This document shows, piece by piece, positions 3,902 to 62,581 of a DNA stretch of 64,000 nt. The notes below the pieces were generated by a model. It saw only the letters and a program-made list of their open reading frames with translations, did no database searches and had not been told where the DNA came from. The DNA is from Agelas oroides. Lineage: Eukaryota; Porifera; Demospongiae; Agelasida; Agelasidae. A program made the position numbers and the translations under genes. Within the stretch, counting starts at the first letter, position 1. Every line of letters starts with the position of its first letter. The stretch spans positions 1 through 64,000 of the forward strand of contig CASBWJ010000007.1 of the NCBI GenBank assembly GCA_949130485.1, written 5' to 3'.

Positions 3902-3950
3902 CTGCATGGATACGTATACAAGCAAAAGGCACAGGTGAAGGTTCTGAACT

Positions 3951-4953
3951 ATCAGAGAGTTGGTAGACTCTCTATGTAGGGATGGTGCCGACACGCAATA
4001 TACGCAGTACTTAAGCACAAGCCACTAAAAGCTTATTTAAGGGCCCAGGCTTCCTCTTTGAGTGCCTTTGTGATCAGCAAGACTCATATAGTTGCCCAAA
4101 AGCCTTGCGGAAGACAGCAAATTATGTGGTAGCGAAAGTGCCATTTTTCATATTCTTTCTTGTTATCACAGCGCGGAGCTCTAGGACCACTCAGCGTCTT
4201 TGTAGCTTTAAATTCCCTGGTCAGTAAAAGCTATTCACAACACTCTGTGCCTGCTGTCAGTTGCATAGGACGCCATTTTGTAATTTGTACGCATGGGCAC
4301 ACGTAGTCTCGTTCCCAGACTAAATACCATGAGCATTGGTCTGGGAACGAGACTAGTGTACAAGCGAAATCGCGAGTTGGCAGGCAGTATGCATGCACAC
4401 GGTCTCTTCCCGTAGTAGTGCCTAGTGGGCAAGGCTTATGAACACCACGTAGGTAAGGCGCTGCATTCAGCTGCTGACTTATATAGCTACACAAAAAAAG
4501 TAGCTACTCACAGCTTTATTAAACTGTGATGCTAGGATGGTCAGTTGTCAGTATAGTTTTCTGTGCTGCAGCTGGTCAGTCGTCATGTGAACGAAAATCA
4601 GGAGATTGGTTTCAAAAAGTCTGGTACGGAGCTCCGGAGAGTGGTTGGCCTTCATCAGACTGGATATGTTACACATAATTATTACATGCTTGGAACCACT
4701 ACTAAATTGTCAATGCCGTTTCAAGTTCTGGGGTTGTAGTTACACTTGAAAGAAATATTCTTCTTAGGCTTAGGTCTAACTGTAACTGAGATTAACATCA
4801 AAAAAGTACAGAAACAAGAAAATAAAAACATTAAAAATGTAAAAAGGTAGGGATGATATGGTGCAGGAATGAGGCTTTGTATATTTACCTTCACCCTACC
4901 TTGTTTGCATACTTTTTGGCATGCCATCCCTACTTCTTTTTACATTTTTAACA
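3951..4953. mobile_element. R1 family element, copy 2
   Basis: Same layout as copy 1: ATCAGAGAGTTGGTAGACTC, TGTAGGGATGGTGCC, the internal TCTCGTTCCCAGAC hairpin, and an end at ATGCCATCCCTACTTC. It lies in the intron just upstream of exon 3611-3901. Confidence 0.8.
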
Positions 4954-24000: not shown

Positions 24001-27000
24001 CACTTTCAAATTTCTGGGAAGCAGCTAGAAACAACTCATCAGTTTCTTGAAAAGCATCAGAGTCACCAGGACCAATCCCCCATCCTTCAGGCACTATATC
24101 CAGTTCGTTTGAATAACCCCCTGGACCAAAGAAGTCATCATTCTGCCACTGTTGCTGGATTTTCTTCCACAAAGAGGGGCTTATGATCTTCTCTCGGTCC
24201 ATTGTCTCTTGAACAAACAGCTCCACCAACACTAGGACTCGCAGTAGCTGCAAAACGCACTGTACGCACTGGCAGTTCAAACTGACAAAATCACATTCCT
24301 GAAAGAATCTCCATAGAGATTTCCCCACGATTTGACGTCATAGCTCGGTTACTAGGTTACACCCATGAGATTTACCCACAGTATGATGTCATAGCTCCGT
24401 TACTAGGTTACTCCTGACGACACTTTCTGGGAACTGGGTGGGTCTAAGTCAGTTAGACACCTCGTACAGGTTTCCCTTAGCCTCGTTCCCAGGCCCGTGC
24501 CCAGCTTCCCGTCGCTTGCAGTACGGTTAAGCGGGAGAGGGCCTGGTACATTTCCTCACGTGAGTGACGTCACAGACAGGGCAAATTATGCGAACGTGGG
24601 CGTCATGTAAACCACAAAAAACTTCGCTCGCACGCACGTACTGGAGCGCGACTATTCCGAGTCGAAAGATAGCAGCGCACGAAGGTGCTTTTATGTCGCT
24701 ATTCACGAGACAGTCGGGAGGACAGAGAGTTTTACCAAGCCAAAACAGTGAAGACACACACCAGCAATCAGTGAGCAATTTAGTCGTGCTTGCCCACGTT
24801 CAATTAAAGTCTTTCTACCGCCTTTCTACCCGTGACGTCACTCACGTGAGAAAATGTACCAGGCCCTCTCCCGCTTAACTGTACTGTACTGCAAGCGACG
24901 GGAAGCTGGGCGCGGGCCTGGGAACGAGGCTAGGTTTCCCTCGGTTTTGACAACCATAGCAGTTAACATAATTACCTCGGCTTCGCCTTGGTAATTATGT
25001 TAACTGCTGTGATTGTCAAAACCTCATAAAAACCTGTACTTGGTGTCTAACCTATACTTAAAGGACACCGCTGAAATAAAGACACCTCACTAATCAGGAC
25101 AAATATTTTGGTCCCAATGGTGTCCATATTAAAGAGGTTCCACTGTAGTTTCCAAGTGTAATGATTGTCTTACTGTAGAGCTTTAGTACATTTGTGTGAT
25201 TATTACAGTAGTGCCCCTAACAAGCGCCCACAGGCGCTTGCAGCTCCAGAGGTCGAAATAAGGTTTATTGAATGTCTGGTCACTATGTCCTAGCACTTTT
25301 GATGTTGAGTGGTCATATTTACAATCTGTCTGGACGTGCTTGTCACAGCCATCCAATTTTACATCTGTATATACCTTTACAATAACGACAGTATATATAA
25401 CCTTTAGCCCGACGCGCATGCGCAGAAATCAACCACGTGTTACGACAGAAATTGATTTCGATTTTGAGTCGTGTAGCTATACTTAGCTTGGTTTGAAATG
25501 AACCTACTTCACGCTGGGAATAGTGAGAAGAGAAGCCAGTAAAGTCTGAACGAGATACAACGGTGGAAAAACCGGTAGCTACTTGACATTGCATGCCAGC
25601 GTTCATGAAAATGAGATGTGAAACGACATACTGAGCGCGCGCTGTCACTAACGGAAGGTAGCGTACTTGAGGTGTAGTTTCTTGGTACTGTCTGCCTCGT
25701 CTCGTCTCTACTGGAAGCGATCCGCGCCAGTTGGGTCGGGCTTGAGACTACGAACGGTTGGTCATGCCTATCGACCACTTACATTTATGGTCGGTCATTG
25801 TAATAAAACACACGGAATTTGACCGATGACCGCATGTAATTTCGACCTCTGCAGCTCAAGCACCAAAATTTGGGGGTGGGCAGTTGCATGGAGGAAGTGC
25901 TTGAATGGTTCAACTATCCCCGTGCAAATGCCCACCTCATATTCAAAATTAGAATCAATGCTTCAAACATGCTTTGTTTTTAGCCAAACGAGGCTAGCCC
26001 AGTGGTGGATAAAGCTGCATCCTGCAAGAAAATGGACTAACATGAACTTGTTGCCAGCAGTTGTCGCTTGCAGTATGTGAATTTCATATTGCAATCGAAG
26101 AACAAGGCTATTGCGGACCGATGCGTGCAAACGTTTGCTGTCCGATGTTGTGGTGCCTGAAGCACAATCACAGTTATATGCACATGAGCTCAGTGACAAT
26201 ACAAACTGTGAAACAAACTCATGTTTGGGTTACCACACAAGAATTTTGCATGGTGGGTGGTTACACAGTGGACCTTGCCAAAAACCACAAAACTGTCAAA
26301 ATTAGGGGGCGGGCGCTTGCACAAAAATGGGCGTTTGTTCATGGCAATTTGATACAACTTCATTGATTGTTCAAGCCCAATGTTGATTAAGTGTTCCTAC
26401 TGACTTGTAAAGCATTGCAGAGGATTTGTTCAATGGTACTGTATTTCTTTTGTTGACAGTACATACCAAGGTCATTCTAGCTCACCTGGGCCAGTCCGTG
26501 TGGTCATTCCAGAGACTGTAACGTCATAGGCAACACCAGGCTGCAACCCCCCAACAACGGCGTAACTAGCACTTCCATTCACTTGCTGTGTCTGCACTTG
26601 TCTCCTGCGTCGACTGCCACTGCTAGCTTGCTGATATGTAATGATGTAGCCCCGAACAATTCCTCGGGCCTCTACCAAGTTCAGGGGGACCCAGCTGACA
26701 TTCATGGCAGTACCATTCAAGCGAATCACCTCTACATTGCGTGGTTCAATACTTGGAGCTGAAGTGGGAGAATGGTTTTATTATTGCCAGGTGAGAACCA
26801 AGGCAGTATAGCTAAGATATATGTCTGTATACATCAATGCAGCATTTTGGTATGGATGTTAGCACTTTATCAACAAAGGAGAATGGTACTGGTGACTGGG
26901 AAGATAATGTGTGATAAATCAATGATCACTGATGGAAGATCAATTTATGTACTAGACTGATTGCCCACAAAAATGAACACAAGTTAATTTATAAGTAGTT

Positions 27001-30000
27001 TATCATACATACCTCCTTCTCTCGTGAAGAAATTCATTGTTTCCTGTTCTCCAGGACCAGCAAGGTTAACTGCCACAACAGTCACATTATAAGGAACAAG
27101 TGGTTCTGTGGAGAGATAAGATCACCAGTGGTAATTAACTGCTAAACTAAAAAATTGTGAAATTGTTGCCAAAGATGATCATTTGTGTCCACACATAACC
27201 AACTATATGGATTTATCCATAAGTGTCTCACTCATAGTCTCACCTAAACCTTCACTGATATTGATCATAAACCTGCCATCACTTGATAGTGCGAGCATTG
27301 TAGTAAAAATGTTTCTGTTGAACTCTGGATCAATCGCCATAAGCTCCAACTCCCTTGATGATCCACTCACAGGTTGGTACCTCTGCACTTGTACAGTGTA
27401 GTTTACAATAGCTCCATTAGTGACCTCTGGTTCTCTCCATTGTAGACTCACAGAGTGGTTTGAGATACGTATAGATCCCAGGTTTTGGACCCTTCCTGGA
27501 ACTAAAAGAGAATGAACGGCACGCATGCGCAGCGAGTACTTGGTCTGTGTGTCTGTGTGTCTGTTACTCAACATCTCACTTTATACGTGATTATTCGTGC
27601 CACAAACAATACTAACCTTCTCAGCGGCGGATGAAGGTCGAAAATTTTAAGCGATTTTCTCTGAAAATGCTTCGTTGCGAAGCTAGAGCGTTTCCTGTTG
27701 GTATGGCTACATGATAAGTCGGGTGCTTCTCCATGTAACCGGTCACTTCATTACATCATCTTGACATAATGACTATTGTGACAGTGGTGGCTGCAATGAT
27801 GCAGATGTCTACAGTGTCCATTGTGTCTGAGGTGCCTGCAGTGTCCATGGTGCCCCAGGTGCCTGGTGTGTCCATGGTGTCTGAGGTCCCTGCAGTGTCC
27901 ATCATGGACACTGCAGGCACCTCAGACACCTCAGACACCATGGACACCTCAGACACCATGGACACCTCAGGCACCTCAGACACCATGGACACCTCAGGCA
28001 CCATGGACACTGCAGGCACCTCAGACACCATGGACACCTCAGACACCATGGACACCTCAGGCACCATGGACACCTCAGGCACCATGGACACACTCAGGCA
28101 CCTCAGACACCATGGACACTTCAGACACCTCAGACACCATGGACACCTAAGACACCATGGACACTGCAGGGACCTCAGACACCATGGACACCTCAGGCAC
28201 CTCAGACACCTCAGACAACATGGACACCTCAGGGACCTCAGACACCATGGACACCTCAGACACCATGGACACCTCAGGCACCATGGACACCTCAGGCACC
28301 ATGGACACACTCAGGCACCTCAGGCACCATGGACACTTCAGACACCTCAGACACCATGGACACCTCAGGCACCTCAGACACCTCAGACACCATGGACACC
28401 TAAGACACCATGGACACTGCAGGCACCTCAGACACCATGGACACCTCAGGCACCTCAGACACCATGGACACCTCAGACACCATGGACACCTCAGGCACCA
28501 TGGACACTGCACCTCAGACACCATGGACACCTCAGGCACCATGGACACCTCAGGCACCATGGACACTCCAGGCACCTCAGACACCTCAGACACCATGGAC
28601 ACCTCAGACACCATGGACACTTCAGACACCTTAGACACCATGGACACTGCAGGCACCTCAGACACCATGGACACCTCAGACACCATGGACACTGCAGGCA
28701 CCTCAGACACCATGGACACCTCAGGCACCATGGACACCTCAGGCACCACGGACACACTCAGGCACCTCAGACACCATGGACACAGCAGGCACCATGGACA
28801 CCTCAGGCACCATGGACACTGCAGGCACCTCAGACACCATGGACACCTCAGACACCATGGACACTGCAGGCACCTCAGACACCATGGACATTGCAGGCAC
28901 CTGGGGCACCATGGTCACCTCAGGCACCTCAGACACCATGGACACTTCAGACACCATGGACACCTCAGACACCATGGATACCTCAGGCACCATGGACACT
29001 GCAGGCACCTCAGACACCATGGACACCTCAGGCACCTCAGACACCATGGACACCTCAGACACCATGGACACCTCAGGCACCATGGATACTACAGGCACCT
29101 CAGACACCATGGACACCTCAAGACACCATGGACACCTCAGGCATCATGGATACTGCAGGCACCTCAGACACCATGGACACCTCAGACACCATGGACACCT
29201 CAGGCATCTCAGACACCATGGACACCTCAGACACCATGGACACCTCAGGCACCATGGATACTACAGGCACCTCAGACACCATGGACACCTCAGATACCAT
29301 GGACACCTCAGGCATCATGGATACTGCAGGCACCTCAGACACCATGGACACTGCAGGCACCTTAGACACCATGGACACTCCAGGCACCTCAGACACCATG
29401 GACACTCCAGGCACCTCGACACCACAGACACTCCAGGCACCTCAGACACCACAGACACTGTAGGCACCTCAGACACCATGGACACTCCAGGCACCTCAGA
29501 CACCATGGACACTGCACGCACCTCAGACACCATGGACACTCCAGGCACCTCAGACACCATGGACACTGTAGACATCTGCATCGTTGCAGCCACCACTGTC
29601 ACAATAGTCACTAGTCAGATGATTCATCATCGTGGGGCGAGCCTTAGCAAGCAGCACACAGCTGATATTCTATTCTGTCATAGCACACAGCAGGGTTGTC
29701 ACTGTCTTTTCGCGGTTATAAGCCAAACTTGATAATGCATAATAGCCTTGTTCCCAGGCCGTTCCCGCCTCCAGTTTATGATCACTTGCAGTATAAAAAC
29801 GGAGGGGAAGGCCTGGGAGAGTCACATGCGTGACGTCAGGTAGACGTGAGGGTAGACGTGAGGGGGGCGGTTCCCAACGAAGAATCTCGAGGTCCTTCTT
29901 GTAACATCTTGTCCAAGAACTTGAGATCGTAATGTATGAAAGACAGCATCAATACAGCTCGCTGTTTGGTAGACTCGAGTCTGATCAACGGAAAGTTTGT

Positions 30001-57000: not shown

Positions 57001-60000
57001 TAACATAGGAACCACTGTGAACAAACAATATTACGCACGGTGGCATAACATAGGGACCACTGTGAATAAACAATATTATGCAGAATAGTAAGGAAAATAG
57101 AGCCTAGTAGAAGTTATAGTTATTAACCGCTCACGAGGGCTTTAGTAGATATATAAGCACACCGCCCGAGGGCGGTGTTGCTTATATATCAACTAAAGCC
57201 CGAGGGTGCGGTTAATAACTGGCTTCTAGCCCGTTTGCGCATGCGCTTCAATGTGTTGCTATGTCAGCGGTATGTTTATTTGTGAACGCAGCTGTTTTTC
57301 GAAGGTTGCACTCGTAGTCTAGCTAGCTTACAGGCACGGTAGTACTCAGTTACTTGTAGTAACAACCAGTTTTGTCGTAGCTGCGACTTTGAAACTGTTC
57401 AACACTGCGATGGGCGACGACAGCCAGTCCGGAAACGGGCCCGAGTGGCAAAGCCTTATGAGAATTGACGGCTATGCCGTGATGCTTTCTGCTGTTTTCC
57501 AACAGCGCTGTTGACAAATTATGTTTCTCAAGGCATCCTAAGTCCACGAAACAAGCCTCAAAGCTAGCTTCGTAGCCACCGTGAGCACACAGCGTTACCG
57601 GTTTGATTTTCGTCTCTTTTGGCCCGTTGGGGCTTGTCCGCGTGGCTTGTTCTCGGACTGGCTATCGCTCTCGTCGACCCATTCTGTTATCGCAATGCTG
57701 AGCGGTTGAGAATGCACATAAAAATATATATTTCTGCGTAACTCCAGGCAAATAAAGTTACCTGTACTTGATGCCCACGGGATACAAACTACAAGGCTTT
57801 ATCTGAAATATAATGCACTCTATTACATAGCAACCACATAGTAACGGGCTAGAAATATATATAATATATGCACCTTCAGCAGTGCTGGATTATGTACAGT
57901 AAAAACCTCATGTCCAGGCCTCCATCCTAGCTTTTGCCTCTTGAGCAAGGTAATGCAAATCTTGCCATGTGCAGTGACATACCTGGACATCCCAAGGCAC
58001 ACCACAATGTTTTTATTTTAATGCTATTAGGTTGTACGTAAATGCTTGAGACTTATAGCCATTAAAATTAATGTGATGGTTTAGGCCATCAGTAAAGTGA
58101 TGCTCCATCCAACTAACTGCTGCACTAGCCAACTTGTCCCGCTACAGTTCGAGATGACAGCTGTGTACAAGGACACCACATTTCCAAAACACTTTGCTTA
58201 TCGATTCTTGGAAAAAAACTTTTGTGTAGTCAACTGGCTGACTTGCATACTGTGGAGAAAGAAACTGCACAAATGTCACACATGTACCAAAGTAGATCTC
58301 TACTTAGCTAGCTACATGCAGTGAAACCCCTCTACAGCAGATGTCATAGGGACCACCACTGTTTGGTATATGGAAATATCTGTAATGCAGGGCTTCCAGT
58401 ATATTTCAAGTAGGCATGACAAAGCATACTCTGGCTGTTGAGTACAAGGGAGCCACATTTCCAGCCTCCCCCCTCCCCTTCCCAGCTGGTGAGAAGGCTA
58501 GTACTGTGAGCAACAGTGCTAATATAATTCCAGTCTTTGGACATGGTGACGGTGGCAGATAATCCTTCGTAAGTGGTAGACAAGCATCTGCATTATCAAA
58601 TAAATACTGTACCTGAAAATATCGAGGAATTGGTAAATCAGGGGGTGATTTGTATATGTTTATAAAGTACTTTGTAGAAAGTACTGACCATATGTAGCTT
58701 GCAAGACTGCTGGATAACACAGGACTGTGCTGCTATCAGCCCATCACTTATATGAGGTATTCTCTGGCTGTCTTGTGTCATGGCTGTCTTGATAAGTATT
58801 GTATAACAATTACAGAATTCATTTTCAAGAAAAGTTATATATATAGCAGCTTTATACCTTGAAAACTGGATGTGAAGTAATTATGTTCTTTTGGTGGAGC
58901 TGGAAATCAGGCTACCAATACACTCACCTTGGACAGTTACATTTCTTATGGCATTCACTGTTGATGAAGGTGTGTCAGTTGTTGACTGACAGGTGTATTG
59001 CCCTCCATGGGATGTGTGCAGAGGGTTGAAGGAGAGGGTGAGGGTGGTGGTTGAGCCAGTGGTTCTCTGGGTCTCCACTGTGGTGTCACTGCCATTGGTC
59101 ACTGCAGTGCCATTACTGGAGTACAGCCACTGAACAGTTGGTGGTACATTAGACTGAACAGTACAGGTCAGGTTGTAGGTCTCCCCAGATATTGGTAAAC
59201 CAGAGCTCAGAATGGTAATGTTGTGCAGTAACTCTGTAGAAATAGACCATGCAGGTATCCATCGTCTGTAAATCTAATGATTGCACAAGTGTCAGCAAGC
59301 CCCACACTTGAGATATGTCTGTATGTGTTTTAAGTTCACATGTGTTTATGGTATGTTGTAGCTGGCTTAGCTGGTCAGCTGTCCAGAGTTCACTAGGGTT
59401 GCATGATATTATTTTGCCATTAAGACACTATACACTGTTTCTCAGGCAATCGCGCATGCCAATTTCCACCCGCACGACAATTTTTTAATAATGGTCACGT
59501 GACAGTTTTCCCTCAAGCATGCGCATTTACCTTCGTAGCCAGTGCCTCATGTCGACTTTCAATACTTGTTGTGATACAGCTGATCAATTCAGTCTCTAGC
59601 TGTCTACAGGAAGGATGGTCTTTGTGTTGATACAAATCTGCAACAGTCTGAGGGACTTGTACTTCATGAATGAGCTGGCAACCATGGTGGAAGTCTTCAA
59701 AGAGTTTGCACAGCAACAGATGGAAGGCTGTTCTGGTTTTGTCTTCTCTGAAGACTTACGACATTTGTTTTGAGTGCTTCTGGACTGTTTCAGACTTTGA
59801 TTTCAAGGCTGATATCTTGCCAACTTCTGACTTTTTTATTCATCTGAAAGAAGGGTTAGTCTCACAAGTCAGACCCTTTCCATTTCCGTGGCAGTGTCGA
59901 TTGCATATTGGATACGAGTACTGAAGTGATCGGTGCTGCGGAAGGGTCTGCCTTGTGAGACTTAGTCAACAGTTCGTAAGCAAAAGCAGATGCAGCTCTC

Positions 60001-62581
60001 TTCGAACAAGCATGAATTGATGGTACAAAGGTCACCAACTAATAAAAATAAATTTTAAATAGCTGACGTGTGCATGGTTTGGGTTAAAAAAATTGCCCTG
60101 TGAAACAACATATTTTATTATTATGGCCTATTGCGTATTGAAAGACACCAGTTTGTCCAAACCCACTTTATGGAGTAGGATTTTTGAGTGTACTGCACTA
60201 ATGGAAAAATCGGTGGCATGAGCCCATGCGCCACCGCAGACAACTACAGAAAGTCTGTCATCCACAGACATGGTCGGAGCCAACAGAAGAGGTGAGCATG
60301 ATCCACTGCCTATGATATGAAAGCAGGGCACCTACAGTAAGCATGGTGCAGGGGCTTTTTTGCCATTTTTGTGTTTACAAAACGAATGTAACTATGCACG
60401 TGCTTTGAACTACAACACACGTGTGCATTCATCAATAATATTGTTGACTGGCATTCCCAGATGGAAAGTACCAAAAGGGAGGGTAAAAAGAACTAGCTCT
60501 ACACCTTTGTTGCTAGACTTGCATGAGTCAACTGCATGTGTCGCCAAAATCCAGTGTGACCATTTGTTCTTGTAAACTTCTTAACTTGCACAAGCAGTGC
60601 TAATGGTTTTAAGTTGCCCAACCTGACTATCACCTCAAGGGGTCTGAGGGGCATGCATGCTTATACCATGCAGCCTCATGCTCCCAGCATATGTGCCTTG
60701 CTACTTGGTTGGCTTCAATTGCTGACCACACAACAATGTTGACATAGCTGCATATATGCCACCTAACTTTCCTTGCCTGAGACTGAAATTTTTTGTGAAG
60801 CAAAGGTATAGAAAAGGGCATAAGTCCAGCTTGAATTGGCCATGCTTGGAGAGAGGAAGTAAGTGGCAAGCTAATTACACATTGGAATGAAGCCTCCCGA
60901 GCACTTCCTGTTCTTGCTTTAAATCCAATTATAGCAAGACTGCCCAAGCACTAGTCTACTGTCCTATTTCTGTGTAAATGATGTGCGATATGGTCCATAC
61001 ACTTGTATTAATGACTCTTGTGACTATACAGAAACAGAAAGGTCCAGTGTGTCCATGAACACTAACACCAACTTGAATTCAAAAGGTAGGATGTCTGTAG
61101 TTGCAAACTGTGATAAATCAATGACTTCTCTGATCTTTTGACCTTTGAGATGTTCAGGGTCTGATATTGAGCAAGCCAATGTAGAAGGCCTATATATGCA
61201 TTTAAGGATAAGTTGATGGAAGAACAGTGGTCTGCTAATGAATGTATTTTGCTGAACGTAGCAACTGCATTATGCTCATCACAATTCATTTTTAAATCAT
61301 GAGCAAATACATAATGTAGCTAATTTGTGAATTCAACAAAGGCAGCAGTTACTCATGACATCTCACATACAGTAAGTGAACATGCACTGTCAAAATGAAA
61401 GACTGGTAGTAAGTCTAGGTGTGAGGTGACACAGACGCGACAGCTAAGCATGCTGGTCTGTTAGTTGACTAGCTTTGCTCGTGCTACTTACTTTGTTGCT
61501 GGAAAGGGGTCCACAGTAACTTAAAACTTAGTCGAAGTAAGCTGTATAATCAGAACTATCACTAACTGGTTCTGTTAGTATGCTCAGCACGTTAACCAAC
61601 CCTAAGTATGATGGCTACTGTCTTAGACAGGAGTGCTAGTAACTACTATCTATCTGTTTTTGGGAAATGCCATTGCAAAAAGAGAAGCCAGAAAAATGCT
61701 ACATCATAACACTGCAGCACAAAAGTGCTACTTTACAGTTGCACACAATAAAATGCGTGCAGTGCTAGAGGCAGAATCGAACACAACCTCTTGGAGTATA
61801 CTAAAAGCAGAATGCAAAGTCATACTTTACTCTCAGTTACATTCGCTTGTTCTATTCTATTCTGTTACGGATTTTACTACCACTACAGACTCTGTCATAA
61901 CCAACAAGTTTTTACACTGGTACAGAATGTGTTGTATTGTACGCTAACACCTACAATTCCCCAGCTGTACATGCATTCATTGACAATTAACCATACTGCT
62001 GTCTAGTCTAGTTCCCTGGCCCCTGGCCAGCTTTCCATCACTTGCAATACGGGAAAAGCGGGAGAGGGCTTGGTATCTTTACTCATGTGAGTGACGTCAG
62101 GGTAGGAAGGATGGTAGAAAGGGTTTTAATTGTGCATGGGCAAAGGTGGGCGAAGGGAGCTCAGAACAGCATTAAGAGCAAAGATACAACACATATCAGG
62201 AATAATTACTATTTGAGTGATGCATAAGTAGAGTGCATACAGTGAAGCTTGCAGATTCTATATGTACATGCTCACCTTGGACAGTCACATTTGTTGTGGC
62301 AGTCACTGTTGATGAAGGTGTGTCAGTTGTTGACTGGCAGGCGTACTGTCTTCCATGGGATGTGTGCAGAGGGTTGAATGAGAGGGTGAGGGTGGTGGTT
62401 GAGCCAGTGGTTCTCTGAGTCCCCACTGTGATGCCACTAGCATCGGTCACTTCACTTCTGTTATTGGAGAACAGCCACTGAACAGTCCGTGGTACATTAG
62501 CCTCAACAGTACAGGTCAGGTTGTAGGTCTCCCCAGAGAATGGTACACCAGAGCTCAGGATAGTAATGTTGTGCAGTAACT
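14987..62581 (-). CDS. Receptor-type protein tyrosine phosphatase with giant Ig/FN3 ectodomain (38 exons traced, 5' end not found)
   Basis: I joined 38 minus-strand exons by GT..AG sites and matching phase; the total of 9,317 coding bases gives 3,104 complete codons plus a stop with no internal stop. Domain order is Ig x6, FN3 x2, V-like, Ig, FN3, Ig x9, FN3 x2, transmembrane helix, juxtamembrane, phosphatase D1, phosphatase D2. The family removes phosphate from phosphotyrosine on the cytoplasmic side under control of extracellular adhesion domains. D1 has WPDHGVP and [10 protein letters not shown], so it should be catalytic; D2 looks inactive. All ectodomain exons are phase 1-1, and the phase changes only from the transmembrane exon onward. 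No signal peptide was found upstream of the first exon, so the start probably lies beyond 64000, or the array contains two genes. Known LAR-type receptors have about 3 Ig and up to 8 FN3 domains, so this ectodomain is far larger. The chain is inferred without transcript data. Confidence 0.8.
15071..15845. other. Last intron of the phosphatase gene, nothing recognised
   Basis: About 0.8 kb between D2 exons 37 and 38. No repeats or exon-like segments noticed. Confidence 0.5.
15846..15981 (-). CDS. Receptor PTP exon 37: D2 signature loop
   Basis: 136 bp, phase 2 to 0. It completes [18 protein letters not shown]; Cys and Arg are kept but the usual HCSAG is changed to MCNDG. It continues with an EGVVDIFQ segment. 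The intron before it carries a (TG)n tract and a 36-bp minisatellite. Confidence 0.88.
16000..16103. repeat. (TG)n microsatellite
   Basis: An alternating TG tract broken by CATG and TATG steps, in the same intron as the 36-bp minisatellite, starting about 20 bp from the acceptor of exon 15846-15981 and replacing a normal polypyrimidine tract there with CA/AC repeats. Confidence 0.9.
16558..16898. repeat. 36-bp minisatellite, about 9 copies, in a D2 intron
   Basis: The unit is GTGATGAAAGCTGGGGGTGT plus 16 more bases (AAGAGCCCGGGAACAA) and is repeated with few changes. As 36 is a multiple of 3, open frames appear on both strands. It sits between D2 exons 16956-17113 and 15846-15981, so it is intronic. 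Confidence 0.9.
16956..17113 (-). CDS. Receptor PTP exon 36: D2, WPE loop
   Basis: 158 bp, phase 0 to 2. It encodes [12 protein letters not shown] (WPE codons 17057-17065) and ends VMC-N, splitting the signature loop across the intron. WPE instead of WPD is typical of weakly active or inactive D2 domains in this family. Confidence 0.88.
17468..17734 (-). CDS. Receptor PTP exon 35: D2, FWRMIWE
   Basis: 267 bp, phase 0-0. It encodes [32 protein letters not shown] and [10 protein letters not shown], then strands ending [10 protein letters not shown]. The donor is AAG|GTTTGC. Confidence 0.9.
17905..18144 (-). CDS. Receptor PTP exon 34: start of D2
   Basis: 240 bp, phase 0-0. It encodes [12 protein letters not shown], an insert [12 protein letters not shown] not usual in D2 domains, then [12 protein letters not shown] perfect donor consensus CAG|GTGAGT lies 12 bases into the exon, and an in-frame AG acceptor (GATCAG) at the same place could start the exon 12 bases later. 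Confidence 0.87.
18250..18399 (-). CDS. Receptor PTP exon 33: end of D1 and D1-D2 linker
   Basis: 150 bp, phase 0-0. It encodes [13 protein letters not shown], finishing D1, then the [12 protein letters not shown] and [10 protein letters not shown] linker into D2. Confidence 0.9.
18478..18777 (-). CDS. Receptor PTP exon 32: D1 catalytic centre
   Basis: 300 bp, phase 0-0. It carries the general-acid loop SWPDHGVP (Asp; codons about 18703-18726), the phosphate-binding loop [11 protein letters not shown] (nucleophilic Cys and Arg; about 18591-18623) and the Gln-loop start (MVQTQ). All residues needed for catalysis by the Cys-phosphatase mechanism are present. Confidence 0.95.
18843..18974 (-). 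CDS. Receptor PTP exon 31: D1, CEQYW
   Basis: 132 bp, phase 0-0. It encodes [10 protein letters not shown] through [10 protein letters not shown], the beta-sheet segment between the KCxxYW motif and the WPD loop. Confidence 0.9.
19039..19136 (-). CDS. Receptor PTP exon 30: D1, FWRMVWE
   Basis: 98 bp, phase 1 to 0. It encodes [18 protein letters not shown] and [12 protein letters not shown], a hallmark PTP helix and strand. The donor is AGG|GTTAGC. Confidence 0.9.
19534..19570 (-). CDS. Receptor PTP exon 29: 37-bp microexon of D1
   Basis: 37 bp, phase 0 to 1, encoding [12 protein letters not shown]. It has acceptor TTTAG and donor G|GTTGGT. It was found by searching for the GY..KNAYIATQ segment that must lie between DYINAS and GP.P.....FW; both phases fit. 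Confidence 0.85.
19668..19744 (-). CDS. Receptor PTP exon 28: D1, DYINAS motif
   Basis: 77 bp, phase 1 to 0. It reads [10 protein letters not shown] and [10 protein letters not shown], the conserved core strand of PTP domains, and joins cleanly to exon 27 as FPYDYCRVKL. Confidence 0.87.
19896..20748 (-). mobile_element. Transposon insertion in a D1 intron, Helitron-like fragment at one end
   Basis: The minus strand encodes [20 protein letters not shown] and on to [18 protein letters not shown] near 19.9-20.06 kb, the same text as at 32.0 and 33.05 kb. AACCCTCGGCGC (19920-19931) and GCGCCGAGGGTTAA (20731-20745) are inverted near the ends. It contains the 66-bp tandem repeat. Confidence 0.55.
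20195..20370. repeat. 66-bp tandem repeat, about 2.6 copies
   Basis: The repeats start at 20200, 20266 and 20332 (GCACTACGGTATTACACTGT) and each contains CATACCTTTCTCAGACGCAT, weaker in the last copy. It lies within a transposon-derived insertion in a D1 intron. Confidence 0.85.
20916..20935. repeat. Short interstitial telomere-like repeat
   Basis: About two and a half CCCTAA units (ACCCTAACCCTAACCCC). The length is compatible with chance or DNA repair; it is not a telomere. Confidence 0.5.
21002..21089 (-). CDS. Receptor PTP exon 27: D1, KNRF motif
   Basis: 88 bp, phase 0 to 1. It contains [12 protein letters not shown], the phosphotyrosine-recognition KNRY motif with Phe in place of Tyr. 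Tyr is usual at this place in active domains, so substrate fit may differ slightly. Confidence 0.85.
21164..21261 (-). CDS. Receptor PTP exon 26: D1 N-terminal wedge
   Basis: 98 bp, phase 1 to 0. It encodes [18 protein letters not shown] and EIEYQ, matching the helix-turn-helix (wedge) start of receptor PTP D1 domains (pattern PI..F..H...MH). Its phase supports the unusual donor of the exon before it. Confidence 0.85.
21955..22151 (-). CDS. Receptor PTP exon 25: juxtamembrane cytoplasmic region
   Basis: 197 bp, phase 2 to phase 1. It is Lys/Ser/Glu-rich ([30 protein letters not shown]). The donor is G|GTTAGG. If the intron is retained, the frame reads GAG GGT TAG and stops at once, giving a membrane receptor without a phosphatase. 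Confidence 0.83.
22348..22489 (-). CDS. Receptor PTP exon 24: transmembrane segment
   Basis: 142 bp, phase 1 to phase 2. A Pro-rich stalk ([16 protein letters not shown]) leads into about 24 hydrophobic residues, from [12 protein letters not shown] to VIAYFLY, followed by Lys and Arg in the next exon (stop-transfer). This orients the Ig domains outside and the phosphatase inside the cell. Confidence 0.9.
22687..22719. repeat. 33-bp hairpin
   Basis: AACTTAAACACCTCT and AGAGGTGTTTAAGTT flank a 3-base loop. It lies in the intron before the transmembrane exon. Confidence 0.8.
22955..24328 (-). pseudogene. Decayed Crypton-like tyrosine recombinase (DUF3504-type)
   Basis: A minus-strand reading with an acidic N-terminal part (24328 to about 23950), a frameshift, then a long conserved block (about 23960-23203: [54 protein letters not shown]). 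Next come a deletion, a shifted KKPKADVWF segment, an in-frame TGA near 23164 and the recombinase end [19 protein letters not shown] followed by RTGHRS and SYKR. The catalytic His-x-x-Arg has His in place of Arg, and the few residues usually between GVDE and RTGHRS are missing. Such genes occur as Crypton transposons and as domesticated vertebrate genes. This copy is dead and lies in the intron between the last FN3 and the transmembrane exon. Confidence 0.8.
24478..24932. mobile_element. 455-bp foldback element with a 9-bp target duplication
   Basis: TAGCCTCGTTCCCAGGCCCG at the left and its complement ending AACGAGGCTA at the right, with arms over 100 bp long (shared GTGACGTCACTCACGTGAG). GGTTTCCCT flanks it exactly on both sides (24469-24477 and 24933-24941). 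An 8-9 bp duplication suggests hAT-like or Mutator-like mobilisation; the family is inferred. Confidence 0.8.
24945..25021. repeat. 77-bp hairpin
   Basis: TTTTGACAACCATAGCAGTT pairs with AACTGCTGTGATTGTCAAAA around a CGGCTTCGCC loop. It lies next to the foldback element 24478-24932. Confidence 0.8.
25027..25146. repeat. Fragment of a MITE with GGTTCCACTGTA end
   Basis: It contains GGTGTCTAACC, GGACACCGCTGAAATAAAG and ends AAAGAGGTTCCACTGTA, like the element at 46855-47076. Related ends occur at 22591 (CAGCGGAACCCCTCTTAGAC) and 58320 (CAGTGAAACCCCTCTACAGC). Confidence 0.6.
25840..26345. repeat. R4 dispersed repeat, copy 2
   Basis: Same order of shared blocks as 8690-9175, ending GGGGGCGGGCGCTTGCAC. 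It lies in the intron between the last FN3 and the transmembrane exon. A further fragment (AAGCGCCCACAGGCGCTTGC) lies at about 25220. Confidence 0.75.
26486..26758 (-). CDS. Receptor PTP exon 23: membrane-proximal FN3 domain with RRRR
   Basis: 273 bp, phase 1-1. Landmarks are [15 protein letters not shown] and YDVTVSGM. A tetrabasic GSRRRRQV loop (codons at 26601-26612) is a possible furin-type cleavage site; LAR-family receptors are cleaved by such proteases near the membrane. Here the site lies inside the FN3 fold rather than after it, so cleavage is only a possibility. Confidence 0.86.
27013..27105 (-). CDS. Receptor PTP exon 22: last strands of the split FN3 domain
   Basis: 93 bp, phase 1-1. 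It encodes [17 protein letters not shown], the classic F-G strands of FN3, which the preceding exon lacks. It was found by extending from exon 21 and is too short to stand out on its own. Confidence 0.83.
27244..27501 (-). CDS. Receptor PTP exon 21: first part of a split FN3 domain
   Basis: 258 bp, phase 1-1, acceptor TCTTTTAG, donor G|GTGAGA. It reads [16 protein letters not shown] and NYTVQVQ. The remaining strands are in exon 27013-27105. It follows a 5.6 kb intron that holds a large minisatellite. Confidence 0.83.
27770..29613. repeat. 1.8 kb minisatellite (9-bp unit) inside an inverted-repeat element
   Basis: The array is built from 9-bp words such as ACCTCAGAC, ACCATGGAC, ACCTCAGGC and ACTGCAGGC in mixed 18- to 45-bp higher-order blocks. 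About 52-bp inverted arms lie at 27770-27822 and 29560-29613 (left arm starts TGACTATTGTGACAGTGGTG). The first about 80 bp of the array (27823-27902) run in the opposite direction to the rest, with the turning point near 27902. Because the unit is a multiple of 3, several frames stay open by chance (Thr-Ser/Met-Asp repeats); I do not call these genes. It lies in the 5.6 kb intron between the last Ig and the first membrane-proximal FN3 exon. Confidence 0.9.
29743..30143. mobile_element. About 400-bp foldback element (TAGCCTTGTTCCCAGG ends)
   Basis: The left arm TAGCCTTGTTCCCAGGCCGT and GGAGGGGAAGGCCTGGGAGA pairs with the right arm TCTCCCAGGCCTTCCCCTCC and GCCTGGGAACGAGGCTA. It belongs to the same loose family as 24478-24932 and is inserted into R2 copy 2. 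Confidence 0.75.
30540..31287. mobile_element. GGTCC-rich inverted-repeat element
   Basis: It starts TGTCATACTATAAGTGGTCC and ends GGACCATCCACGGTGTGACA; GCCC stands on both sides. Both ends carry several more GGTCCCCCC/GGGGGGACC copies in different orientations. It interrupts R2 copy 2. No gene recognised inside. Confidence 0.7.
31381..31710. mobile_element. TAGTCTCG-type inverted-repeat element, first of a serial pair
   Basis: TAGTCTCGTGCCCAGACCCC and GGGGTCTGGGTACGAGACTA bound about 330 bp. AAGCAAAC stands at 31373-31380 and again at 31711-31718. Confidence 0.8.
31719..31836. mobile_element. TAGCCTCG-type inverted-repeat element, second of a serial pair
   Basis: TAGCCTCGTCCCCAGGCCCC and GGGGCCTGGGGACGAGGCTA bound 118 bp. 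The third AAGCAAAC copy follows at 31838-31845. Confidence 0.8.
31975..32170 (+). pseudogene. Helitron-like protein fragment with 22-residue repeats
   Basis: The plus strand encodes [20 protein letters not shown] and a second similar 22-residue unit ([20 protein letters not shown]). Such R-x-SE-T...EQ repeats precede the helicase part of some Helitron-encoded proteins; that link is from memory and unverified. The remainder of the protein is absent. A matching text continues at 33025-33085 after a MITE. Confidence 0.5.
32222..33024. mobile_element. MITE-like element with TA target site
   Basis: Inverted ends TTACCGTAGACTCCGGTTAA and AACCGGAGTTTACGGTA, next to TA. It contains a second nested element (32778-32976) and interrupts Helitron-like sequence on either side. 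Confidence 0.75.
32778..32976. mobile_element. Nested 199-bp MITE
   Basis: Inverted ends AATGTTACTTTTAATTGCG and CGCAATTAAAAGTAACATT are near-perfect over 19 bp, with further inner symmetry (TTTAGCGATTTTAGCG). It is inserted inside the larger element 32222-33024. Confidence 0.8.
33025..33085 (+). pseudogene. Helitron-like fragment, continued after the MITE
   Basis: It reads [18 protein letters not shown], matching [18 protein letters not shown] in the insertion at 19.9 kb. It stops about 10 bp before the donor of Ig exon 33094-33426. Confidence 0.5.
33094..33426 (-). CDS. Receptor PTP exon 20: Ig domain (alpha), last Ig before the FN3 pair
   Basis: 333 bp, phase 1-1, donor G|GTAAGT. Landmarks are [19 protein letters not shown] and TGNYTC. 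Transposon-derived sequence ends about 10 bp from its donor. Confidence 0.86.
33506..33859 (-). CDS. Receptor PTP exon 19: Ig domain (beta)
   Basis: 354 bp, phase 1-1. Landmarks are [19 protein letters not shown] and GGRYVC. The intron before it has been enlarged by a full R1 repeat. Confidence 0.86.
33988..35057. mobile_element. R1 family element, copy 3, in a phosphatase-gene intron
   Basis: It is very similar to copy 1 over its whole length (ATCAGAGAGTTGGAAGACTC, GAACACCACATAGGCAAGGC, CATCCCTACATC). It fills most of the intron between Ig exons 18 and 19. Confidence 0.85.
35303..35443. mobile_element. Two short TAGCCTCATTCCCAGG hairpins in tandem
   Basis: 35303-35356 (TAGCCTCATTCCCAGGCCAT ... 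GAGAATGAGGCTA) and 35383-35443 (TAGTCTCGTTCCCAGGCTAT ... GAGAACGTGGCTA) each carry GTGGG(C/A)GGAGCTAGGA in the middle, so they are two copies of one mini-element. Confidence 0.75.
35494..35637. mobile_element. R1 terminal fragment abutting an exon donor
   Basis: An inverted copy of only the R1 end (GATGTAGGGATGGGGCTTTG ... TGCCATCCCTACATATTTTT). It ends within a few bases of the donor of exon 35642-35974. Confidence 0.75.
35642..35974 (-). CDS. Receptor PTP exon 18: Ig domain (alpha)
   Basis: 333 bp, phase 1-1, separated from exon 17 by a 72-bp intron. Landmarks are [25 protein letters not shown] and GGEYTC. Its donor (A|GTAAGACAAG) sits directly against a fragment of the R1 repeat (35494-35637). 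Confidence 0.87.
36047..36400 (-). CDS. Receptor PTP exon 17: Ig domain (beta)
   Basis: 354 bp, phase 1-1, separated from exon 16 by a 67-bp intron. Landmarks are [19 protein letters not shown] and SGNYEC, with a QFVTMS tail. Confidence 0.87.
36468..36788 (-). CDS. Receptor PTP exon 16: Ig domain (alpha)
   Basis: 321 bp, phase 1-1, donor A|GTATGT. Landmarks are [25 protein letters not shown] and [16 protein letters not shown]. Confidence 0.87.
37341..37682 (-). CDS. Receptor PTP exon 15: Ig domain (beta)
   Basis: 342 bp, phase 1-1, separated from exon 14 by a 73-bp intron. Landmarks are [19 protein letters not shown] and SGTYTC, with a SPFIMM tail. Confidence 0.87.
37756..38085 (-). CDS. 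Receptor PTP exon 14: Ig domain (alpha)
   Basis: 330 bp, phase 1-1, separated from exon 13 by a 73-bp intron. Landmarks are [25 protein letters not shown] and TSHGRQYTC. Confidence 0.87.
38159..38497 (-). CDS. Receptor PTP exon 13: Ig domain (beta)
   Basis: 339 bp, phase 1-1. Landmarks are [20 protein letters not shown] and SGDYTC, with a QFIIAS tail. It starts the dense alternating run of eight Ig exons that ends at 33094. Confidence 0.87.
38498..40640. other. 2.1 kb intron, nothing recognised
   Basis: Intron between exons 12 and 13. I saw no inverted repeat, tandem repeat or coding signature in it. It is one of the few long introns without an obvious transposon. Confidence 0.5.
40641..40949 (-). 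CDS. Receptor PTP exon 12: Ig domain (alpha-prime)
   Basis: 309 bp, phase 1-1, donor A|GTACGT. Landmarks are NLTC, IEWLSL and [14 protein letters not shown]. It is closest in wording to exon 56657-56971 (QYSCQATLG). Confidence 0.85.
41126..41607. mobile_element. MITE-like element, about 480 bp
   Basis: Inverted ends TACCGTATTTCCTCGATCAG (GACACTG) and CAGCGTCTGATTGAGGGAGT (ACAGTA). It fills part of the intron between exons 11 and 12. Confidence 0.7.
42151..42599. mobile_element. About 450-bp long inverted repeat
   Basis: CAGAGGAGGTTGGAAGCTAG with ATAGCAATTAG and GTGAAATCGATTTACAC in the left arm recur as complements in the right arm (GTGTAAATCGATTTCACATT and CTTCCAACTTCCTCTG). It is intronic. 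Confidence 0.75.
42721..42996 (-). CDS. Receptor PTP exon 11: FN3 domain
   Basis: 276 bp, phase 1-1, donor G|GTAAGA. Landmarks are [16 protein letters not shown] and [10 protein letters not shown]. It stands alone between repeat-rich introns on both sides. Confidence 0.85.
43107..43186. repeat. 80-bp hairpin
   Basis: TTTGACAAAGGGGATGGAGACTG pairs with CAGTCTCCATCCCCTTTTATCAAA, lying just upstream of FN3 exon 42721-42996. Confidence 0.8.
43540..44070. repeat. Remnant of an inverted repeat with TTATCTGA motifs
   Basis: TTATTTGAACCTTAATTATCTGACACC at the left and ACTTATCTGAATGAATTTACTTATCTGAACAC at the right resemble a similar pair at 3358-3565 (CATATCCGAACTGCAGTTAT ... CACTTATCTGAATATTTC). 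No gene recognised inside. Confidence 0.5.
44294..44593 (-). CDS. Receptor PTP exon 10: Ig domain
   Basis: 300 bp, phase 1-1, donor G|GTAAGA. Landmarks are [23 protein letters not shown] and GEYEC. The [11 protein letters not shown] string also occurs in the Ig exon 3611-3901 of the left-hand gene, which likewise follows a V-like exon. The V-like plus Ig order is therefore shared between the two genes. Confidence 0.85.
45002..45246 (-). pseudogene. Decayed duplicate of the V-like exon
   Basis: The minus strand again reads [30 protein letters not shown] and YFGVYTA, ending at a G|GTGGGT donor, but a TAA stop falls between EIPD and YFGVYTA at about 45051. The N-terminal third of the domain is missing, and sequence matching the YTA end of another copy stands just before it. 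It looks like an unequal duplication of exon 45324-45692 that lost function. It is left out of the traced chain. Confidence 0.7.
45324..45692 (-). CDS. Receptor PTP exon 9: V-like Ig-like domain (WFFPNG/YIGVY type)
   Basis: 369 bp, phase 1-1, acceptor CCCACAG. Cys occurs in LPACCRS, followed by [36 protein letters not shown] and MYIGVY. The domain resembles the exon at 7911-8243 in the neighbouring gene. The fold assignment is by pattern only. I believe this family is common in sponge receptor-like proteins, but I could not check that. Confidence 0.75.
45774..46082 (-). CDS. Receptor PTP exon 8: FN3 domain
   Basis: 309 bp, phase 1-1, donor A|GTGAGT. Landmarks are [22 protein letters not shown] and [18 protein letters not shown]. 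It follows a 4.6 kb repeat-filled intron and lies only 81 bp from the V-like exon. Confidence 0.85.
46855..47076. mobile_element. MITE with ACAGTGGAACCTCTA ends
   Basis: TACAGTGGAACCTCTATAAT at the left and TAGGGGAGGTTCCACTATA at the right. Inner GTGTCC/GGACAC words suggest further symmetry. It has relatives at 25027, 22591 and 58320. Confidence 0.7.
47611..47900 (-). pseudogene. LINE reverse-transcriptase C-terminal fragment
   Basis: The minus strand encodes [20 protein letters not shown] followed by a Ser-rich stretch and FKSRLKCFL. The pattern F..I..WN.LP.....S...FK..L is the usual C-terminal tail of non-LTR retrotransposon polymerases. The rest of the protein is absent, as expected for a 5'-truncated insertion. 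Confidence 0.65.
48542..48560. repeat. Poly(C) tract
   Basis: 19 C in a row. Shorter C tracts occur at 10071-10083 and 54177-54204. All are intronic. Confidence 0.95.
48776..48813. repeat. 38-bp hairpin
   Basis: GTGGGTAGGAACCCAA and TTGGGTTCCTACCCAC are perfect complements around a short loop. Confidence 0.85.
48935..49421. mobile_element. MITE-like element with TACCGTATAGCGGGAAATTT ends
   Basis: Left end TACCGTATAGCGGGAAATTT and right end AAATTTCCCACTATACGGTA, followed inward by TTTTCGCGA-like words. About 490 bp, intronic, TA-flanked. Confidence 0.75.
49733..50105. mobile_element. MITE-like element with AATCTCTCGAAAATACGCCC end
   Basis: The left end TTTAATCTCTCGAAAATACG and right end GGGAGATTACGGTA are complementary at the tips; GTGGGCGTATTTTC and its complement recur inside in several orientations. 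Confidence 0.65.
50727..51023 (-). CDS. Receptor PTP exon 7: FN3 domain
   Basis: 297 bp, phase 1-1. Landmarks are [23 protein letters not shown] and [13 protein letters not shown], a complete FN3 fold in one exon. It begins with a proline-rich PPVPPP linker. Confidence 0.85.
51102..51449 (-). CDS. Receptor PTP exon 6: Ig domain (beta)
   Basis: 348 bp, phase 1-1, donor G|GTAAGA, acceptor TTTTTTAG. Landmarks are [19 protein letters not shown] and SSNYTC, ending in a SPFIVSSEG tail typical of beta domains in this gene. Confidence 0.85.
52137..52442 (-). CDS. Receptor PTP exon 5: Ig domain (alpha-prime)
   Basis: 306 bp, phase 1-1. Landmarks are NLTC, VQWLYS and GGQYTC. It is the third member of the near-identical set with the exons at 58928 and 62276, although it lies 6.5 to 10 kb away from them with a beta exon between. 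Confidence 0.85.
52588..52997. mobile_element. Two hairpin elements of the CCCAGGCCTTCCCC family
   Basis: 52588-52692 (TAGCCTCGTTTCCAGGCTTC ... GGGGAAGGCCTGGGAACAGA) and 52908-52997 (TTCCCAGGCCTTCCCCATTT ... AATGGGGGAGGCCTGGGAA). A lone end lies at 53100 (TAGCCTCGTGCCCAGGTCAC). Confidence 0.7.
54312..54796. mobile_element. R2 family element, copy 3
   Basis: It starts GGGGCGAGCCTGAGTGAG and ends TCGCTCAGGCTCGCCCC. The interior shares GTAAGTTGCCGTGCGTGCT and CAGTCTGGCAGTAGCCCTTC with copy 2 but is more diverged. It lies directly beside the R3 element at 54799. Confidence 0.7.
54799..56025. mobile_element. R3 family element, copy 2
   Basis: Terminal repeats ACACCCCAAGTGGGGAAA and TTTCTTTCCACTTGGGGTGT bound about 1.2 kb without a convincing gene. 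It contains the perfect palindrome 55358-55399. It is intronic. Confidence 0.7.
55358..55399. repeat. 42-bp perfect palindrome
   Basis: GCCAACTTCTATATATGGCTA followed at once by its exact reverse complement, with no loop. It lies inside R3 copy 2 and is missing from R3 copy 1. Confidence 0.95.
56236..56577 (-). CDS. Receptor PTP exon 4: Ig domain (subtype beta)
   Basis: 342 bp, phase 1-1, donor G|GTAAGG. Landmarks are [18 protein letters not shown] and FGNYSC, with a conserved [15 protein letters not shown] tail. Beta domains are marked by a VDT motif before the Trp strand and a polar ending before the last strand. Confidence 0.85.
56657..56971 (-). CDS. Receptor PTP exon 3: Ig domain (alpha-prime)
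   Basis: 315 bp, phase 1-1, donor A|GTAAGA. Landmarks are NLTC, VEWLDP and TSHGGQYSC; the exon ends NVTVQS. It is separated from the next exon by a 79-bp intron, so the two form a tight pair. Confidence 0.85.
57118..57220. repeat. About 100-bp hairpin
   Basis: TATTAACCGCTCACGAGGGC (continuing TTTAGTAGATATATAAGC) pairs with GCTTATATATCAACTAAAGC (CCGAGGGTGCGGTTAATA) around ACCGCCCGAGGGCGGT. It lies in the intron between exons 2 and 3; the following 500 bp are CpG-richer but show no gene. Confidence 0.85.
58928..59233 (-). CDS. Receptor PTP exon 2: Ig domain (alpha-prime)
   Basis: 306 bp, phase 1-1, with the same splice sites as its two sister exons. Ig landmarks are NLTC, VQWLYS and GGQYTC. 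The Ser/Thr-rich stretch ending in [15 protein letters not shown] is shared word for word with the sisters. Confidence 0.85.
59234..62275. other. 3.0 kb intron between exons 1 and 2
   Basis: It contains the 59853 hairpin and a lone TAGTCTAGTTCCCTGGCCCC end at 62008 with the ACTCATGTGAGTGACGTCAG motif seen also in the element 24478-24932. A minus-strand frame at 59513-59716 has no recognisable domain. Confidence 0.45.
59853..59968. repeat. About 115-bp hairpin element
   Basis: GTTAGTCTCACAAGTCAGAC (CCTTTCC) pairs with GGAAGGGTCTGCCTTGTGAG (ACTTA). It lies in the intron between exons 1 and 2. Confidence 0.75.
62276..62581 (-). CDS. Receptor PTP exon 1 of those traced: Ig domain (subtype alpha-prime)
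   Basis: 306 bp, phase 1-1, acceptor CTACAG and donor G|GTGAGC. Ig landmarks in order are NLTC, VQWLFS and TSHGRQYAC. It is nearly identical in wording and exactly equal in length to exons 58928-59233 and 52137-52442, so the three are recent duplicates. It is the most N-terminal domain visible here. Confidence 0.85.

Follow-up and report, generated by a model that had tools for sequence, protein, structure and literature searches.

What kind of receptor is encoded by a gene whose ectodomain exons are all of one phase, and is it this phasing that sets the gene apart? The question is raised by a locus of the sponge Agelas oroides on contig CASBWJ010000007.1 (C29), which is unplaced and 69,543 bases long and whose bases 1-64000 form the window analysed here. 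The minus strand of the window carries a long chain of immunoglobulin (Ig) and fibronectin type III (FN3) exons, which an earlier note had read as the ectodomain of a giant receptor phosphatase laid out for variety by exon duplication or alternative splicing. From searches of the assembled genome (259 Mb in 141 contigs, a single genome, with listings that are lower bounds), we conclude that the unusual part is the set of related genes around the phase pattern, in which one type of ectodomain is found with two types of tail, one a phosphatase and the other a short tail with tyrosines. The window's gene may well be most of one member of a sponge receptor family working as paired receptors, whose forms would share ectodomains and oppose each other in tyrosine signalling, a reading that we consider evenly poised.

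The exons were first called by splice-site scoring on Ig and FN3 reading frames with phase 1 forced, and the chain remains a prediction in which short exons of other phases in between could escape. All 23 ectodomain exons, from the acceptor at 62581 to the donor at 26486 (both outer borders are exact), are open, bordered by AG and GT, divisible by three in length and of phase 1-1. In a phase-free control, the splice site with the highest score within 45 nt was taken for these exons and for two further ones beyond the window; it was a phase-1 site at 24 of 25 acceptors and at all 25 donors, on a background in which phase-1 sites make up 55 of 100 AG and 76 of 180 GT. The top acceptor differed from the chosen one in three of the 25 cases, and two of these three alternatives are likewise of phase 1. 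In the tyrosine-tail gene at 7.094 Mb of contig C12, the single paralogue that was compared exon by exon, 18 of the 23 exons (one of the three type C exons being counted) have a 1:1 counterpart of at least 60% at the amino acid level, with the order kept. An AG acceptor, an in-frame GT and the absence of stops were found for 17 of these 18 counterparts, 16 being of exactly equal length; the far end of the remaining one, that of exon 9, was not cleanly found. Since the counterparts keep splice sites, frame and length, the exons are constrained and not chance frames. A gene on the plus strand was rejected, as no receptor domain was recognised among its frames of at least 70 amino acids in the window between 25.5 and 64 kb.

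The chain contains 16 Ig domains, 5 FN3 domains and one domain without a family name, so that the earlier note was right on both the almost one-to-one relation of domains to exons and the total of 21 Ig/FN3 domains; with two further Ig exons upstream, outside the window, the number rises to 23. At E <= 0.01 Pfam names 15 of the 16 Ig exons, and 14 of the 16 are at or over the curated cut-off, exon 4 standing just on it and exon 15 below it. Exon 19 gave no Pfam hit at this threshold, yet its invariant C, W and YxC align with those of the other Ig exons. FN3 was named by Pfam in five exons, and one FN3 domain is split across two exons. For exon 9 no significant family was obtained from Pfam or PDB profiles. 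Domain borders are formed by phase 1 introns on both sides, as in exon-shuffled ectodomains of class 1-1. No signal-peptide exon was recognised between the exon chain and the contig end, and the full ectodomain is probably longer than read here.

The assignment as a receptor phosphatase is borne out downstream of exon 23, where a transmembrane (TM) exon and two protein tyrosine phosphatase (PTP) domains, D1 and D2, follow in this order. The active-site motif of D1 is intact, with WPD and [10 protein letters not shown], and D2 has WPE as well as CSDGVGRTG, read by eye across an exon border. A phmmer search with the translations of the PTP exons, joined by eye, gave PTPRS (E 6e-131) and LAR (1.8e-114) as the nearest PDB entries. 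As predicted from these translations, the cytoplasmic part is a LAR/PTPRS-like tandem phosphatase, whereas the ectodomain layout is not LAR-like. LAR-type ectodomains have three N-terminal Ig domains and then up to nine FN3 domains, and the sponge gene, as had been claimed, is far larger. With LAR, PTPRS and PTPRD (type IIa) it shares the tandem cytoplasmic PTP, the D1 motifs and an ectodomain of Ig and FN3 type; it differs from them in having at least 21 domains, with Ig and FN3 intermixed and an extra unnamed domain, and in sharing its membrane-near exons with receptors that are not phosphatases. Under a definition of type IIa as three Ig domains followed by FN3 only, the ectodomain as read falls outside this type, its N-terminus lying off the contig.

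The phase pattern itself lost its significance as a special sign when it was compared with known receptors. According to the available text of one source (PMC8001218), shuffled ectodomain modules of animals are as a rule of class 1-1, and the accessible part of another describes R3 receptor phosphatases in which FN3 domains are mostly encoded by 1:1 exons, some with a 1:1:1 split (PMC5336234). Exons 21 and 22 show this same split pattern. R3 receptors are stated to carry 8 to 18 FN3 domains in the text available of a third paper (PMC5242461). The phase pattern and the size of the sponge gene therefore represent an extreme of a known layout, and the idea that the phasing is the discovery was dropped because the literature shows it to be ordinary.

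What is out of the ordinary became visible when single exons were searched against the genome. Exon 23 has nine copies with 82-100% amino acid identity, one on C29 and eight on C12, and the next-best matches are six on contig C6 with 43-48%. Exon 20 detects the same nine genes (67-100%, one copy being split over two places), and the two exons pair gene by gene, one of each per gene, with eight of the nine genes on C12. Copies of the D1 exon of at least 89% were found behind four of the nine genes (C29, and C12 6065905, 6298332 and 6392931); this search, in which all 140 first-look candidates were scored, listed no copy at C12 7.0-7.3 Mb or near 6.15 Mb. The other five genes, with exon 23 at C12 6151434, 7065604, 7094019, 7186171 and 7215499, are followed by an anchor exon coding for about 105 extracellular residues and a TM helix (78-100% amino acid identity) and by a tail exon (84-99%), and the listings for these two exons had no match behind any of the four phosphatase genes. 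The phosphatase gene at C12 6.382 Mb has an intact TM exon of the phosphatase type (6382720-6382854) and no anchor or tail exon; for the other two phosphatase genes on C12, the TM exon region was seen by match only (78% at the DNA level). The tyrosine tail is 81 residues long and its four tyrosines are kept in all five genes, with YEVV, YDVI and YENI in all of them, YELA in four and YELT in one. At least two tail classes are thus present, with four phosphatase and five tyrosine-tail genes, as found in searches with the D1, anchor and tail exons. Pfam and PDB profiles gave nothing significant for the anchor exon, and its resemblance to a SEA-like domain is an impression only. The anchor-exon family is wider than these five genes and has most of its members on C12; in four genes on C6, a related anchor exon comes after an FN3 that resembles exon 23, and a fifth case on C6 was recognised by position only.

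In silico splicing of all five tyrosine-tail genes gives one open frame that leads from the phase-1 donor of exon 23 through a short exon (1-0) and the anchor exon (0-2) to the tail exon (2-stop). The predicted join of the short exon to the anchor exon is supported by the 7065604 copy, which has both without the intron of about 65 nt that separates them in the other four genes. Exon 23 and the anchor exon do not fit together directly, their phases being mismatched, and such a join was rejected; the short phase 1-0 exon in between was first suggested by the C6 relatives. All five genes also contain, 126-133 nt behind exon 23, a truncated TM exon of the phosphatase type with the same stop in the middle of the helix. 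The simplest reading of these sequences is that the tyrosine-tail genes of this set would be derived from a phosphatase gene through tail replacement. The anchor type is old and belongs to a wider family, since the C6 genes also pair an FN3 like exon 23 with an anchor exon, and this, together with the retention of the truncated TM exon, speaks against a simple story of tail replacement.

The two parts of the window's gene have different nearest relatives. Its ectodomain and C12 7.094-7.120 Mb are collinear (80-94% at the nucleotide level in the main blocks), with gain and loss of exons between the two, and the matching stops past exon 23; its phosphatase tail finds its match at C12 6.382-6.400 Mb (84-90% in the main blocks, with further ones as low as 74%). 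The region of exons 13-17 is 94% identical to the tyrosine-tail gene versus 80-87% to the phosphatase gene at 6.37 Mb, and for exon 20 these values are 91.6% and 81.2%. Of 16 introns compared with the gene at 7.094 Mb, 12 align (75-98%, some in part) and 4 hardly or not at all. Identity to that gene is 97.8% for the 543-nt intron and 98.5% for the 67-nt intron that lie between exons 15 and 17, and 92-96% for exons 15-17 themselves. Exon-level conversion or shuffling among the cluster genes would fit this mosaic. A simple haplotype of the C12 7.094 Mb gene was rejected as an explanation, since the tail is mismatched there and matches 6.39 Mb instead. The collinearity, the gain and loss of exons and the fact that some exons (15-17) differ more than their flanking introns could also indicate that the C12 cluster is an allorecognition complex, i.e. 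a polymorphic self/non-self locus of which C29 represents one haplotype of a part; with one genome, in which allele and paralogue are not separable, and with a C29 tail that has no match at that place on C12, we regard this as rather unlikely. That a small, unplaced contig of mixed affinities is an assembly artefact, with the ectodomain and the phosphatase tail coming from different loci, is very improbable: the order of exon 23, TM exon and PTP recurs at 6.38-6.40 Mb on C12, a contig of 9.4 Mb, and the receptor parts of C29 are several percent off both nearest loci, with only its repeats reaching 98-99% elsewhere.

Exon duplication, which the earlier note had expected, is evident from a type C exon that occurs three times in C29 and a B'-A' cassette that occurs twice, the copies being 88-92% alike, and from exon content that differs between gene copies. 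The similarity of both kinds of duplicates ends 10-30 nt beyond the exon borders, for which reason a simple neutral segmental duplication of Ig exons was rejected. The 79-nt intron of the B'-A' cassette persists as the two edges of an intron of 1.56 kb. A Dscam-like system, in which alternative splicing of phase 1-1 exons yields many forms per gene, would profit from exons that are all frame-neutral and from the presence of some Ig types in multiple copies, and the variation of exon content between genes may be mentioned beside it. However, we saw no array of equivalent, mutually exclusive exons, for the most part A types alternate with B types, and 8 of the 22 introns measure only 67-81 nt, as expected under constitutive joining, which makes such a system improbable to our mind.

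Some further observations concern single stretches of the gene. The intron between exons 20 and 21 is 5.6 kb long versus 77 nt in the tyrosine-tail copy at C12 7.094 Mb, and it contains a repeat of about 1.7 kb with 18/27/45-bp periods and a strong strand skew; a sampled repeat word was absent from the two C12 stretches tested. On the minus strand at window 45048-45383 there is a partial second exon 9 domain with no good in-frame donor, by eye like the 7.094 Mb version, which has the look of a decayed exon. The D2 region (window 16582-16897) contains a tandem repeat of 36-bp units, which is longer in the C12 phosphatase gene (6396460-6398022).

The rates of change of the different parts were compared by the ratio of nonsynonymous to synonymous substitutions (dN/dS; Nei-Gojobori counts with Jukes-Cantor correction). 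For the ectodomain of C29 versus the gene at 7.094 Mb, the value pooled over 18 exons is 0.55, with a range of 0.07-1.09 and three exons near 1; exon 18 was excluded as not orthologous and exon 9 included though its C12 end is uncertain. Lower values were obtained for the PTP part (0.11; two exons, one pair, C29 versus the 6.382 Mb gene) and for the tyrosine tail (0.19; all 10 pairs), with 0.42 for the anchor exon and 0.45 for exon 23 (21 pairs of seven copies). Both tails are conserved and the ectodomain is faster changing. A role in adhesion or self/non-self recognition, put forward earlier as speculation, becomes more plausible with the fast-changing ectodomain and the apparently swapped tails. 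It is possible, although we lean against it, that the window's gene is an ordinary giant receptor phosphatase of the adhesion type and that the tyrosine-tail genes are derived paralogues minus the phosphatase, acting alone in adhesion and unpaired. The anchor-exon family does extend beyond this set, and in the available text of a review, the Ig proteins of sponges are associated chiefly with adhesion and the recognition of cells (PMC11999971). A comparable case is reported for tunicates, which have a relative of receptor phosphatases without PTP and with a short phosphorylatable tail, the uroplakins being related to PTPRQ, and no pairing is described in the part of that paper that is available (PMC5242461). 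The purifying selection on both tails behind closely related ectodomains argues against such unpaired action, as does the observation that the Ig region of the window's phosphatase gene is nearest to a tyrosine-tail gene.

The reading as paired receptors can draw on a cluster of homologous genes whose ectodomains are close relatives and whose cytoplasmic tails fall into two classes. What we infer about splicing, expression, ligand and antagonism from this gene structure is as follows. The ligands of the two forms would be identical or similar and would probably sit on neighbouring cells. Src-type kinases would phosphorylate the tyrosines of the short tail, which would then serve as docking sites for SH2 proteins, and the phosphatase form would be recruited to the same cell contacts and strip off the phosphates, so that the balance of the two forms would set the output in adhesion or recognition. 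The uniform phase 1 may allow recombination to swap exon cassettes and tails without a frameshift, by which ectodomains could diversify while tails stay conserved.

Known systems resemble this arrangement in part. In vertebrate paired receptors the inhibitory form recruits phosphatases via immunoreceptor tyrosine-based inhibitory motifs (ITIMs). Such receptors, e.g. CD300A and CD300C, have related Ig ectodomains with different signalling tails, as described in the available text of a source (PMC12447643); in the sponge, one form itself carries the phosphatase. R3 phosphatases, the tunicate CionaNocat and the uroplakins UPK2/3 are alike in their phase 1:1 and 1:1:1 FN3 exons and in a PTP-less relative with a short phosphorylatable tail, whereas R3 phosphatases have FN3 only and one PTP domain, and the accessible parts of these papers describe no cluster with interchangeable ectodomains (PMC5336234, PMC5242461). 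The fester and FcoR genes of Botryllus are also invertebrate receptor families in one locus, with tyrosine motifs in the FcoR tails, but possess sushi and Ig domains, and the link to allorecognition is that of Botryllus, as far as the available text goes (PMC12065747). In the titles and abstract openings of the literature covered, with subscription journals mostly outside its scope, no description was found of these sponge receptors or of a phosphatase/tyrosine-tail pair.

Several points weigh against the paired-receptor interpretation. The contig is small and unplaced and ends inside the receptor gene, of which the 5' end is missing. The nine genes may include recent segmental duplicates or unmerged haplotypes; the copies at 6062574 and 6294982, for example, are alike in match scores for D1, the tail region and exon 20, though not in the exon 23 search. 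The mosaic is not sharp, since exons 21-23 show much the same identity to genes of either tail type (88-95% at the nucleotide level). In all five tyrosine-tail genes the truncated TM exon still has a good acceptor and an unchanged frame and stop, and it may be an alternative end that is used, giving a short secreted form, and not a dead relic. The overall dN/dS is below 1, with no value showing positive selection. Furthermore, by consensus the tail motifs are neither strict ITIMs nor strict immunoreceptor tyrosine-based activation motifs (ITAMs), and a YxxPhi motif can also act as an endocytosis signal.

Table 1 Features of the receptor gene in the window and copies of exon 23 on contig C12
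Feature	Position	Strand	Remarks
Exon 1, Ig (type C)	62276..62581	-	phase 1-1
Exon 2, Ig (type C)	58928..59233	-	
Exon 3, Ig (type B')	56657..56971	-	duplicate upstream of window at contig 66593-66279
Exon 4, Ig (type A')	56236..56577	-	duplicate upstream of window at contig 64715-64389
Exon 5, Ig (type C)	52137..52442	-	
Exon 6, Ig (type A)	51102..51449	-	
Exon 7, FN3	50727..51023	-	
Exon 8, FN3	45774..46082	-	
Exon 9, no Pfam family	45324..45692	-	four cysteines, WFFPNGT...GxYxC; Ig-like only by weak profile match (hhalign probability 27%)
Exon 10, Ig	44294..44593	-	
Exon 11, FN3	42721..42996	-	
Exon 12, Ig	40641..40949	-	
Exon 13, Ig (A)	38159..38497	-	
Exon 14, Ig (B)	37756..38085	-	
Exon 15, Ig (A)	37341..37682	-	all Pfam matches under curated cut-offs
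Exon 16, Ig (B)	36468..36797	-	
Exon 17, Ig (A)	36047..36400	-	
Exon 18, Ig (B)	35642..35974	-	no close counterpart in C12 7.094 Mb copy
Exon 19, Ig-like (A)	33506..33859	-	aligned with other Ig exons; no Pfam hit at E <= 0.01
Exon 20, Ig (B)	33094..33426	-	nine close genome copies, one per gene
Exon 21, split FN3, part one	27244..27501	-	
Exon 22, split FN3, part two	27013..27105	-	no Pfam hit when taken alone
Exon 23, membrane-proximal FN3	26486..26758	-	nine close copies; tail types diverge at its phase-1 donor
Transmembrane exon, phosphatase form	22348..22489	-	phase-1 acceptor
PTP D1, C-terminal half	18442..18783	-	WPD loop and [10 protein letters not shown]
PTP D2, N-terminal half	17456..17734	-	
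Frame with C-terminal part of D2	15705..16139	-	CSDGVGRTG when joined by eye to preceding exon
18/27/45-bp tandem repeat, intron between exons 20 and 21	27812..29566		
QRICH1/DUF3504 open frame, intron between exon 23 and TM exon	23206..23964	-	does not belong to the receptor
Exon 23 copies on C12	6062574, 6151434, 6294982, 6382224	+	
Exon 23 copies on C12	7065604, 7094019, 7186171, 7215499	-	

The QRICH1/DUF3504 frame in Table 1 is one that we take to be of the tyrosine-recombinase transposon type. Past the 3' end of the gene, at window 3594-3971 on the minus strand, lies an open frame with an Ig domain (Ig_3, E 7e-10), which perhaps belongs to a neighbouring receptor gene. On C12, hit pairs of equal or similar scores at 7.04-7.16 and 7.19-7.31 Mb, and at 6.05 and 6.29 Mb, suggest large recent segmental duplications or unmerged haplotypes. 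At least 180 PTP-domain matches are present in the genome (150 of 330 candidates scored), with arrays at C12 4.87-5.07 Mb, where ten D1-like copies were found, C1 6.4-7.0 Mb, C18 0.50-0.60 Mb and C3 1.39-1.47 Mb. The search of bacterial and archaeal contigs gave one PTP-like frame (3001-3189), in an Endozoicomonas ascidiicola record (43% amino acid identity, query residues 4-67). The mitochondrial contig C141 (22,436 bases) uses TGA for tryptophan and carries 23 predicted tRNA genes over three pieces and, by eye, an atp9-like gene, atp9 in animal mitochondrial DNA being a mark of demosponges, to which the animal is accordingly assigned; its cox1 is split by an intron with a LAGLIDADG-like open frame, also recognised by eye.

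The genes of self/non-self recognition in sponges are poorly known beyond the aggregation factors, and a family whose members have ectodomain exons in common and either of two tails for tyrosine signalling provides a directly testable candidate for recognition. A bolder view, which we consider doubtful, is that the C12 cluster is the histocompatibility complex of the sponge, in which polymorphic ectodomains would swap exons and the balance of two opposed tails would decide between fusion and rejection. If true, a sponge would possess an activating/inhibitory receptor logic in which the receptor itself includes the phosphatase. For the uniform phase 1 the gene family suggests a use, since tails and domain cassettes may be exchangeable at phase-1 introns. 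The paired-receptor reading would show that such logic, with a built-in phosphatase, occurs in a non-bilaterian animal, and the family looks like an early-animal version of immune paired receptors.

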